Assembly: GCF_013373365.1 (NCBI RefSeq)
Contig: NZ_CP035925.1
Location: forward strand, 1,054,001-1,118,000
DNA from: Lentibacillus sp. CBA3610
GTDB lineage: Bacteria > Bacillota > Bacilli > Bacillales > Amphibacillaceae
Reading direction: 5' to 3'
DNA: 64,000 bases
Below are positions 2,196 to 6,289 of this stretch, in pieces. Position numbers and translations under genes: made by a program. The notes beneath the pieces were generated by a model. The model had not been told where the DNA came from and did not search any database. It saw only the letters and a program-made list of their open reading frames with translations. Position 1 is the first letter of the stretch. Each line of letters opens with the position of its first letter.

Positions 2196-2296
2196 TAGAC
2201 TAATACAATATAGATAAAAATAGAGCTCAAAACGTTACATTTGTGTATTAAGTATTTTTAGTCACTATTTAATTTGCCACAATTATGTATAACCTT

Positions 2297-2340
2297 AAAC
2301 GAGGCTTTCATCAGCTAAATGTGATGAAAGCCTCGTTTTT
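2297..2340. terminator. Bidirectional terminator between the small membrane protein gene and lexA
   Basis: A 17-bp perfect inverted repeat (AAACGAGGCTTTCATCA, then its complement) with an 8-nt loop, followed by a T-run on the plus strand and flanked by A residues that give a T-run for the minus strand. It lies at the 3' ends of two convergent genes. Confidence 0.9.
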
Positions 2341-2962
2341 AATCAATATTTCGATAAAGCCCGATTACTTTTCCTAATATGGTCACATTTTTATAAATGA
2401 GCGGTTCCATGGTTGCGTTTTCCGGCTGCAGACGGACGTGATCTTTTTCTTTAAAAAACCGCTTCACAGTGGCTTCATCTTCTTCGGTCATGCCCACAAC
2501 AATATCACCATTTTGTGCTGTGTTTTGCTGTTTAACAATAACCATGTCTCCATCCAATATACCCGCTTCAATCATACTCTCACCCTCAATGACAAGCACA
2601 AACAAATTTTCGTCAGTTCCTGTAACGGTGCCTGGCAATGGTACAAATTCCTCGATATTTTCCACTGCGGTGATGGGAATACCTGCTGTTACTTTACCAA
2701 TTACCGGAGCATAACGCGGTTCTTCTCTTGGTATGTGACTTTCTTCAGATTGTTCCAGGACTTCTATAGCCCTTGGTTTTGTGGGGTCTCGTCTGATAAA
2801 CCCCTTGCTTTCCAGTCGTGCCAAATGACCATGGACGGTTGAACTGGAAGCTAGCCCGACTGCTACTGCAATTTCCCGGACTGACGGCGGGTACCCTTTT
2901 GCATCCACTTGTTCTTTAATATAGTCGAGAATTGCTTCTTGCCGTTTTGAGAGTTTTGTCAT
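2339..2962 (-). CDS. lexA: LexA, SOS transcriptional repressor
   Basis: Repressor of the SOS regulon that cleaves itself when RecA filaments form on damaged DNA. 207 residues. The winged-helix DNA-binding domain (residues ~1-65, with [25 protein letters not shown]) is followed by the S24 peptidase domain. The cleavage bond Ala93-Gly94 (KVTAGIPI), the catalytic Ser129 (GESM) and Lys167 (TVKRFF) are all present, so the protein should be self-cleavable. It is divergent from a micro-ORF/yneB transcript; its own promoter (2999-3027) overlaps a LexA box, consistent with autorepression. Confidence 0.98.
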
Positions 2963-2998
2963 CTATTAAACACCTCGCACATAATATTTATTGAGAAA

Positions 2999-3027
2999 AG
3001 TATACCATGGATTTTTAAAATAGACAA
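2999..3027 (-). promoter_or_regulatory. lexA promoter
   Basis: On the minus strand TTGTCT (3027-3022), a 17-bp spacer and TATACT (3004-2999) fit a sigma-A promoter reading into lexA. The -35 overlaps the LexA-type box at 3025-3038. Confidence 0.75.
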
Positions 3028-3038
3028 ACATTCGTTCG
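3025..3038. promoter_or_regulatory. LexA box 1 (lexA-proximal)
   Basis: CAAACATTCGTTCG matches the Bacillus LexA box core GAAC-N4-GTTC with one change (AAAC). It overlaps the -35 of the lexA promoter, as expected for autorepression. Confidence 0.7.
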
Positions 3039-3046
3039 AAAAACTA

Positions 3047-3074
3047 TTGACAAGATCGTACGTTCGTATATAAT
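3047..3074 (+). promoter_or_regulatory. SOS promoter of the micro-ORF-yneB transcript, with LexA box 2
   Basis: TTGACA at 3047-3052, a 16-bp spacer and TATAAT at 3069-3074 form a near-perfect sigma-A promoter. The spacer holds GATCGTACGTTCG (3054-3066), a one-mismatch LexA box, so bound LexA would cover the promoter. Confidence 0.85.
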
Positions 3075-3082
3075 AGTATATA

Positions 3083-3096
3083 CGAACAATAGTTCT
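3083..3096. promoter_or_regulatory. LexA box 3
   Basis: CGAACAATAGTTCT has the exact GAAC-N4-GTTC core and lies at about +3 to +15 of the rightward promoter. Three boxes in 72 bp indicate tight repression of the divergent promoters. Confidence 0.9.
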
Positions 3097-3124
3097 TGTT
3101 GAACATTTAAAGGAGATGGCGCAT

Positions 3125-3220
3125 ATGTTTGGAAAATTAACGAAAACTGATATATTCTATTTAGCAGCTTTTGCAGCAGCATTGATATTTTTATATTTTT
3201 CTTTGATAACAAGTGCATAA
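3125..3220 (+). CDS. 31-residue single-span membrane micropeptide in the SOS operon, in the yneA position
   Basis: ATG at 3125 follows AAAGGAGATGGCGCAT, a strong ribosome site. The 31 codons give a short basic N-terminus (MFGKLTKTD) and one hydrophobic span from about residue 10 to 28. It sits between the LexA-controlled promoter and yneB, with yneB starting 21 bp after its stop. In B. subtilis and many relatives this slot is held by yneA, a ~100-residue SOS cell-division inhibitor with a transmembrane anchor and a LysM domain. Here only the anchor-sized part exists and no room is left for LysM. Role in delaying division during SOS is inference from position and regulation; there is no direct sequence proof. 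Confidence 0.75.
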   Translation: MFGKLTKTDIFYLAAFAAALIFLYFSLITSA

Positions 3221-3229
3221 CAGACTTAA

Positions 3230-3880
<651 letters not shown>

Positions 3881-3905
3881 ATATGACGTTATGGAAGTGT
3901 AATAT

Positions 3906-3944
3906 AAAAAGGCAGGAACACACATATTGTTCGTGCCTTTTTAT
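3906..3944 (+). terminator. Terminator between yneB and ynzC
   Basis: AAAGGCAGGAACA pairs with TGTTCGTGCCTTT (one mismatch) and is followed by a T-run. It should separate SOS-controlled yneB from ynzC or leave only readthrough. Confidence 0.75.
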
Positions 3945-3966
3945 TGGTTTTCAGGAGGTTTAAAAA

Positions 3967-4200
3967 ATGTTATCAAAAGAAAAACTTGACCGCATAAATC
4001 AGTTGGCAAATAAGTCGAAAGAAGAAGGGTTAACCGTGAAGGAGCAAGCGGAACAAAAAGACCTTCGGGAAGAATATTTGCAAAATGTTCGCAAGTCCTT
4101 TAAAAACCAGTTTAAGTCAATGACCGTAAAAGATCCGGAGGGCAAAGATGTCACGCCAAAGAAAGTGCGTGATTTACAAAATAGAAACAAAAAGCATTAG
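3967..4200 (+). CDS. ynzC: YnzC, DUF896 family small protein
   Basis: 77 residues after CAGGAGGTTTAAAAA. The sequence MLSKEKLDRINQLANKSKEE and the helix QKDLREEYLQNVRKSFKNQ are the characteristic DUF896 helical hairpin; the tail is basic and disordered. B. subtilis YnzC is in the same place after yneAB and is SOS-induced with them; its function is unknown. Confidence 0.93.
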   Translation: MLSKEKLDRINQLANKSKEEGLTVKEQAEQKDLREEYLQNVRKSFKNQFKSMTVKDPEGKDVTPKKVRDLQNRNKKH

Positions 4201-4212
4201 ACATAATATGAC

Positions 4213-4241
4213 TTGTTACAATGCCAGATTCATTATAGAAT
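4213..4241 (+). promoter_or_regulatory. Candidate tkt promoter
   Basis: TTGTTA (4213-4218), 17-bp spacer, TAGAAT (4236-4241), ending 42 bp before the tkt start. It matches sigma-A spacing with an imperfect -10. Confidence 0.45.
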
Positions 4242-4282
4242 TAGGATGGACATGAATGCTAACAATGGAAAGGGGTATTGCT

Positions 4283-6289
4283 TTGTCAGAATCAATCGAA
4301 CAATTATCCATTAATACAATCAGGACACTAGCTATTGATGCAGTTGAAAATGCAAGTTCCGGTCACCCGGGTCTGCCAATGGGTGCAGCACCAATGGCCT
4401 ACACCTTGTGGACCGATTTTATGACCCATAATCCAAAAAACTCCAAATGGTTTAATAGGGATCGCTTTGTTTTGTCAGCCGGTCATGGATCGATGCTTCT
4501 GTACGGTCTGCTGCATCTGTCAGGTTATGATGTAACCATTGATGATTTGAAATCTTTCCGGCAATGGGATTCACGCACGCCGGGTCATCCGGAAGTCCAC
4601 CATACTGATGGTGTTGAGGCAACGACAGGGCCGCTTGGACAAGGTATCGCCATGTCAGTCGGAATGGCTATGGCTGAGGCTCATCTGGCAGCAACCTATA
4701 ATAAAGAAGATATTTCGATTATCGATCATTATACGTATGCACTCGTGAGTGATGGCGATCTAATGGAGGGGATTTCCCACGAATCCGCATCACTCGCAGG
4801 TCATTTAAAACTGGGTAAACTCATCGCGCTATATGACTCTAATGATATTTCATTGGATGGTGAATTGAATCGTGCATTTTCTGATAATACAGAGGAACGG
4901 TTTAAAGCATATGGCTGGCAGGTTATCCGGGTCGAGGACGGAAATAATCTGAATGAAATCCGGAATGCTATTAAGAAAGCAAAAGAAAATACTGATCAGC
5001 CAACTTTAATCGAAGTAAAAACGGTTATCGGATATGGGGCACCAAATAAATCCGCATCAGCTGCCTCACATGGCGCCCCACTTGGTGAGGATGAAGTTAA
5101 ATTGACGAAAGAGCACTATCAGTGGGAGCATGATGAATTCCATGTACCTGAGGATGTTTATGACGATTTCAGGGAAAAAATTGCTGTAAAGGGTGCAGAT
5201 GCTGAACAAGAGTGGAACCGTTCATTTGAAAGCTACAAGGAAAAATATCCTGAAGCCGGTTCTGAACTGGAACATGCCATAAAGGGTGAACTGCCGGAAA
5301 ACTGGGATAAGAATCTGCCGGTGTACGATACGGACGATGATGCCAAAGCAACACGTGCAACATCCGGTGAAGTACTGAATGAAGTTTCCAAATCTGTGCC
5401 ATACCTTTTCGGCGGCAGTGCTGATTTGGCAGGCTCGAATAAAACAACAATTAAAGAACAGGACGACTTCTCACGCAATAATTATGCAGGTAAGAATATT
5501 TGGTTCGGTGTCCGTGAATTTGCAATGGCCGCAGCAGGAAATGGAATGGCACTGCATGGCGGAATAAAACCGTATGTTGGCACATTTTTTGTGTTCAGTG
5601 ATTACTTGCGTCCGGCGGTAAGGCTGTCGGCAATCATGAATAATCCGGTAACTTACGTGTTCACCCATGATTCGATTGCCGTTGGAGAAGATGGCCCGAC
5701 ACATGAACCAATCGAACAATTACCATCGCTCAGACCTATGCCGGGACTTTCACTTATCAGACCGGCCGATGGCAACGAAGTACGAGCAGCATGGCGGTTT
5801 GCTTTGGAATCCCGGAATAAGCCAACCGCGCTGGTGTTGACAAGGCAAGGACTTCCTGTGTTGGATGGCACAAGGGAAAATGCGTATGAGGGCGTGAAAA
5901 AAGGTGCGTATGTACTCAGTGAAGTGGGCAAAGAGACGCCTGATGCACTGCTATTGGCATCAGGATCGGAAGTTCAGCTGGCTGTAAGAGCGAAAGAAGC
6001 GTTACGTGATAAAGGTATTGAGGTTAATGTTGTCAGCATGCCATCCTGGGATCGATTTAACGAGCAGGATGAAGCTTACAAAAAACAGGTGCTCCCGCCA
6101 AATGTCAAGAAGCGTCTGGCCATTGAAATGGCATCACCGTTCGGCTGGGAAAGATACACAGGTGATGAAGGTGATATCCTGGCAATTGATCGTTTTGGCG
6201 CATCTGCCAAAGGTGATAAAGTCGTTGAAGAATATGGCTTCAATGTTGAGAATGTCGTCAAACATATAGAAGCGTTATTACAAAAATAG
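4283..6289 (+). CDS. tkt: Transketolase
   Basis: Thiamine-diphosphate enzyme that moves two-carbon ketol units between sugar phosphates in the non-oxidative pentose phosphate pathway. About 668 residues. The TTG at 4283 is preferred over the ATG at 4256: GGAAAGGGG ends 7 bp upstream of it and the family N-terminus ([17 protein letters not shown]) begins there. Domains in order: TPP-binding PP domain with [15 protein letters not shown] and SDGDLMEG, the pyrimidine domain with [19 protein letters not shown], and a C-terminal regulatory domain. It is a single-gene unit with a terminator at 6296. Confidence 0.97.

Follow-up and report, generated by a model that had tools for sequence, protein, structure and literature searches.

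The systems closest to the locus analyzed here are the SOS-controlled membrane proteins YneA of Bacillus subtilis, SosA of Staphylococcus aureus, SidA of Caulobacter crescentus and TisB of Escherichia coli. YneA comprises some 100 residues with a LysM/extracellular domain, and its gene lies beside lexA, divergently transcribed, under LexA boxes and, in many relatives, upstream of yneB. TisB is described as a 29-aa, hydrophobic membrane toxin under SOS control, belonging to type I and paired with istR-1. The transmembrane (TM) segment of YneA is reported to bind TM7 of FtsW, with K5, E6, F10 and F14 given as critical residues and the FtsW variants V204F and P206L as escaping its action (PMC13396833). 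The same account has the anchor of B. subtilis YneA reaching FtsW and the divisome once LysM is removed, but leaving division unblocked (PMC13396833). SosA is reported to require its extracellular C-terminus for activity (PMC6851548), and the 29-residue SidA to inhibit division through an interaction with FtsW (PMC4211646).

In the window (64,000 nucleotides of the Lentibacillus sp. CBA3610 genome), lexA (2339..2962, minus strand; 207 aa, 95% identical to the locus in Lentibacillus halodurans) is separated from the resolvase-like yneB (3242..3880, plus strand; NF049883, 347.6 bits, E 2e-104) by an interval containing a 31-codon open reading frame (ORF; 3125..3220, plus strand) that encodes MFGKLTKTDIFYLAAFAAALIFLYFSLITSA, with its ATG at 3125 and its stop codon at 3218-3220, 21 bp from yneB and on the same strand. 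These coordinates agree with an earlier note on this DNA, made from the sequence alone, which had placed an ORF of this length between lexA and yneB. A ribosome-binding site (AAGGAG; 3110..3115, plus strand) lies 9 nt upstream of ATG 3125, a spacing that fits this codon as the start; an alternative in-frame ATG at 3116 would yield 34 residues but directly abuts the ribosome-binding site, and a similar ATG occurs in locus L004 and is absent from most of the 77 relatives' loci. The peptide ends right after its hydrophobic stretch, supporting the single membrane span that the note had proposed, and together with three relatives it returned no match in Pfam or NCBIfam up to E 1. Downstream of yneB lies a DUF896 gene (3967..4200, plus strand; NF002711, 73.7 bits, under its cut-off of 112), which by gene name we take to be ynzC-like. 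Two side observations concern the surroundings of the ORF: in Lentibacillus salicampi (L005) some 230 additional bases separate the peptide from yneB, and on the far side of lexA the window contains a 95-residue single-TM ORF (1908-2195) for which no convincing NCBIfam match was obtained.

The ORF is preceded by a predicted promoter, TTGACA-N16-TATAAT (3047..3074, plus strand), with its -35 element at 3047-3052, its -10 element at 3069-3074 and a 16 nt spacer. Three predicted LexA boxes surround these elements: one upstream of the -35 (3026..3037, core AAACATTCGTTC, 7/8), one between the -35 and the -10 (3054..3065, core GATCGTACGTTC, 7/8) and one just past the -10 (3084..3095, core GAACAATAGTTC, 8/8). 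Three or more LexA cores scoring at least 7/8 were present in all 78 lexA-yneB intervals inspected (the window and 77 related loci), versus 0.04 per interval after shuffling, and a TTGAC-N16-19-TANNNT promoter was found upstream in 69 of them. The near-consensus promoter covered by LexA boxes that the note had described is thus borne out. A genome-wide scan with the LexA-box pattern allowing one mismatch showed no enrichment (45 places, whereas the reversed control gave 115).

The micropeptide resembles SidA in size (31 versus 29 residues), in its single span and in its SOS control, so that the likeness of size and topology drawn in the earlier note stands and extends to regulation, with a hydrophobic span and LexA boxes accompanying the 31 residues; Caulobacter crescentus is a distant lineage. 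SidA acts on FtsW, which is the target proposed here for the micropeptide. The 77-aa SosA is likewise lexA-adjacent, SOS-controlled and TM-anchored, and has no LysM domain, but it carries an extracellular C-terminal segment, whereas the micropeptide ends with its hydrophobic stretch.

Conservation and distribution of the micropeptide

The sample of relatives comprised the best 80 of at least 536 genome stretches encoding a lexA relative. A version of 30 to 35 residues was found at the same place in 77 of these 80 lexA-yneB intervals, the exceptions being L031, L056 and L060. Two rules, one based on hydrophobicity alone and the other on a motif of D/E, F16 and Y24, returned the same 77 loci, indicating that the motif rule cost no row. 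Across 39 independent nearest pairs, the in-frame pN/pS was 0.32 and dN/dS 0.24, compared with pN/pS values of 0.91 and 1.44 for the same DNA read in the two alternative frames. Purifying selection maintains the ORF at the protein level, which rules out a chance ORF and settles the two checks proposed with the original observation, conservation between lexA and yneB and the codon substitution pattern. The presence of a lexA-adjacent ORF for a predicted SOS micropeptide is hence confirmed. No earlier description of it was found in searches of the open-licence literature on YneA, LexA/SOS, yneB and phage FtsW inhibitors.

Residues D9, F16 and Y24 were invariant in 52 aligned peptides selected without a residue rule, and likewise across 73 distinct peptides, with position 12 occupied by Y or F and position 20 by F, I or L. 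This pattern shows a weak helical period (p 0.03 at 100 degrees, with a slightly higher score at 170 degrees).

A search of 397 genomes of the order with a profile of the peptide (A1) matched 56, of which 49 were judged credible: 16 of the 17 listed in family f1, 8 in f45, 16 in f50, 1 in f72 and 8 in f76. The remaining seven, with E-values of 7e-4 to 0.01 and odd frames, were excluded, along with a few weak second matches. At the level of the class, profile A3 matched seven of 398 genomes, all of them in carrier family f1. The ORF upstream of lexA was then classified in 83 rows of the order, window included, at roughly one or more per family. The LysM type, assigned by a sequence motif rule and extended by eye to L216 and L219, accounted for 54 rows, the micropeptide for 11, a TM segment with a LysM-less tail for 8 and other TM-only ORFs for 3, with no ORF in the remaining 7. 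A TM+LysM YneA hence occupies the lexA locus in most other families sampled, and the micropeptide here, in support of the replacement of YneA that the note had claimed for the lexA-yneB interval.

A quick tree built from LexA in 113 rows placed 38 carriers together with 5 ORF-less rows in one group (SH-aLRT 99), and the distinction between carriers and the rest required a single change once the ORF-less rows were put aside. The micropeptide marks one clade on this tree. The carrier-clade rows without the peptide are L031, L056, L060, L196 and L197; two Amphibacillus loci retain LexA-like sequences in a gap of roughly 400 bp.

Other LysM-less ORFs, of 28 to some 94 residues, were observed at the lexA locus in L166, L230, L224, L203, L199, L200, L223, L225, L169, L170 and L180, and three of these are bare TM segments. 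The TM-only rows L166 (f60), L230 (f80) and L224 (f75), one genome each, fall among LysM rows and require three changes on the best LexA tree, of which supported branches force one. The LysM-less ORFs outside the carrier clade may represent separate losses of LysM; a rough motif scan in the three forward frames of nine such loci from other lineages found no clear LysM remnant.

Copies in prophages and viral contigs

Seven additional copies were found by profile elsewhere in six genomes, and all seven keep F16 and Y24, together with D or E at position 9. Prophage-like early regions that include repressor-like HTH genes contain five of them (L158, L159, L160, L162 and L163); this context was established by family search for L158 and judged by eye for the other four. 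The neighbours of L158 include RecT-like, SbcC-like and DnaD-like proteins, an HTH regulator and a YqaH-like protein (PF17448, E 8e-4, under the cut-off). L161 adjoins ORFs that by eye are integrase- and repressor-like. The seventh, L164, is a second copy in the window's own genome (at about 3700 kb), N-terminally extended and with no clear phage neighbours. A third, apparently degraded copy (L366) was observed in the same genome at about 3840 kb.

Three pattern scans of viral contigs returned 26, 90 and 17 stretches, which overlap, and reading frames identified real homologs in L246, L258, L284, L290, L305 and L346, the peptide of L290 being the same as in a genome already counted. The patterns required D9, F16 and Y24, so that these copies are no evidence for the conservation of those residues. 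L246 adjoins a KilAC/Bro-N antirepressor, and L258 (IMGVR_UViG_3300023301_001715) carries a type B DNA polymerase and a 27-residue homolog near the contig end; we take this contig to be phi29-like. One prophage copy gave weak matches to PHROG 12200 (E 1e-4) and 29100 (E 0.019), phage proteins of unknown function, the former with a model of 53 residues; each was matched by only 2 of 18 aligned peptides, and a search of 61 order genomes with phrog_12200 returned a single poor match, located within a frame of 673 aa. In tblastn searches, neither five short peptides queried against phages nor the window peptide queried against plasmids gave a match even at E 10, a weak negative given the shortness and partly low complexity of queries of this kind. 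Judged by the profile and pattern matches, copies of the micropeptide are carried by some prophages and viral contigs.

Relation to YneA and FtsW

The micropeptide gene shares with yneA its divergence from lexA under predicted LexA boxes, and the N-terminal TM anchor is represented by a hydrophobic segment in 77 of the 80 loci. The extracellular LysM domain was not found, the ORF stopping right after the TM segment at some 31 residues; by domain content, the micropeptide is not a YneA. In an alignment made by eye, its K7, Y12 and F16 correspond to the critical K5, F10 and F14 of B. subtilis YneA, but the critical E6 has no acidic counterpart.

The genome of the window was also inspected for a full-length yneA at another locus with SOS control, and none was found. 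It contains 15 LysM matches, the smallest in an open frame of 200 aa, and a YneA-sized LysM protein was accordingly rejected; judged by coordinates, none of the 15 has a LexA box just upstream. A frameshifted YneA with a LysM remnant was likewise rejected in the carriers, the gap between the peptide and yneB being too short in most of them.

A profile of 73 peptides was run over a set of 54 YneAs plus some 2400 further TM ORFs, of which 1781 sequences received a score. Micropeptide copies took the 36 best scores, some loci being represented twice among them. Among the next 20, 11 were lexA-adjacent YneA-type ORFs, versus 71 of 1745 overall (p 3e-11, kinship ignored), and the best single YneA match, L211, reached only E 0.016. 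This preference of the profile for the TM segments of lexA-adjacent YneA-type ORFs indicates that the micropeptide is probably what remains of a YneA pared down to the membrane anchor, and not a peptide of separate origin. Considered along with the common location, regulation and gene downstream, the ranking is most simply explained if the micropeptide descends from a YneA that lost its LysM domain.

FtsW was compared in 84 genomes, using proteins picked by BLAST and the length of the stretch from the QPD motif to the RF-type motif after TM7. The best matches to the FtsW model were assumed to be SpoVE-type proteins and the next ones FtsW, an assignment that also took their spacing into account. 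This stretch spanned 55 or 57 residues, the short form, in all 21 carriers, and 53 residues in all 29 SpoVE-type paralogs. Among 45 LysM genomes it was of 57 residues or less in 13 and longer in 32. FtsW was short in all six genomes whose YneA anchor reached 5 bits or more against the micropeptide profile, two of them with FtsWs of the 53-residue type that are uncertain as orthologs, versus long in 32 of the other 39. The 5-bit split (Fisher p 2e-4) used a cut chosen after the scores had been seen; without a cut, the Mann-Whitney p was 0.02. A test of independent pairs yielded one supported pair, too few to count either way, and the genome of L166 combines a TM-only ORF with the long form of FtsW. 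The short stretch in carriers is consistent with a changed contact at the known YneA site, and lineage alone could explain it. In the window's genome, a further tandem pair of FtsW-model matches (G000:C1:495609-497840) was observed beside the assigned FtsW and SpoVE.

Proposed function of the micropeptide and alternative explanations

We lean, by a modest degree, towards the view that this clade inhibits division during the SOS response by means of the micropeptide, which would derive from YneA and act on FtsW through the helix only, in the manner of SidA. Cleavage of LexA would derepress the micropeptide, which would insert in the membrane with its positive N-terminus in the cytoplasm. Its D9, Y12, F16, L20 and Y24 would then pack against FtsW at TM7, where B. 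subtilis YneA binds, and the helix would hold septal wall synthesis off, with no LysM domain involved, until degradation removes the peptide once the damage is repaired. Prophages and viral contigs would carry such a peptide presumably to halt division of the host for their own ends. The step from FtsW binding to a block of division is one that we infer, and it runs against the truncation result in B. subtilis. More tentatively, and at rather less than even chance, a whole clade of Bacillota may run its SOS division checkpoint with a bare helix of some 30 residues that stops FtsW by helix-helix contact alone, FtsW and the peptide having changed together so that LysM became unnecessary, and phages, including a phi29-like one, may have captured the inhibitor to arrest division of the host.

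The truncation result is also what gives some weight to a different, rather unlikely possibility, that the micropeptide binds TM7 of FtsW without inhibiting it, either modulating it mildly or serving as a decoy against full-length inhibitors, an activity that phages might prefer: in B. subtilis, the YneA TM segment alone is reported to contact FtsW and leave division unblocked (PMC13396833). A decoy, however, would have no YneA-sized LysM protein in the window's genome to compete with, nor a LysM ORF at lexA in any of the 11 carrier rows, and the confinement of the seven class-level A3 matches to carrier family f1 speaks against this reading as well. The partner might instead be a different SOS-response membrane protein, such as a checkpoint protease, as the membrane proteases CtpA and DdcP are reported to degrade YneA (PMC13396833); the resemblance to FtsW-binding anchors and the length pattern of FtsW, both indirect, make this improbable.

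A SOS toxin akin to TisB, causing membrane depolarisation and dormancy instead of a block of septation, would match the micropeptide in size, SOS control and hydrophobicity as TisB is described, but appears unlikely. Several division inhibitors of Gram-positive bacteria are reported to be encoded beside lexA (PMC6851548), the TM segment of the micropeptide resembles YneA anchors, and positions 2200-4300 of the window returned no Rfam match up to E 1, a search that an undescribed antisense RNA would escape. The short distance to yneB in the window would also suit a leader ORF that merely tunes yneB translation and has an inert product. Selection at the amino-acid level and the prophage-like and viral-contig copies, which show no yneB among the nearby ORFs listed, render this reading very improbable.

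The micropeptide adds a family of proteins of some 30 residues, four members of which gave no Pfam or NCBIfam match. A TM-only lineage under strong selection, together with phage-borne copies, offers a natural setting in which to ask whether one helix is enough to shut off the FtsW polymerase. If the proposed activity is true, the micropeptide would amount to a genetically encoded inhibitor of minimal size, directed at an enzyme essential for wall synthesis.
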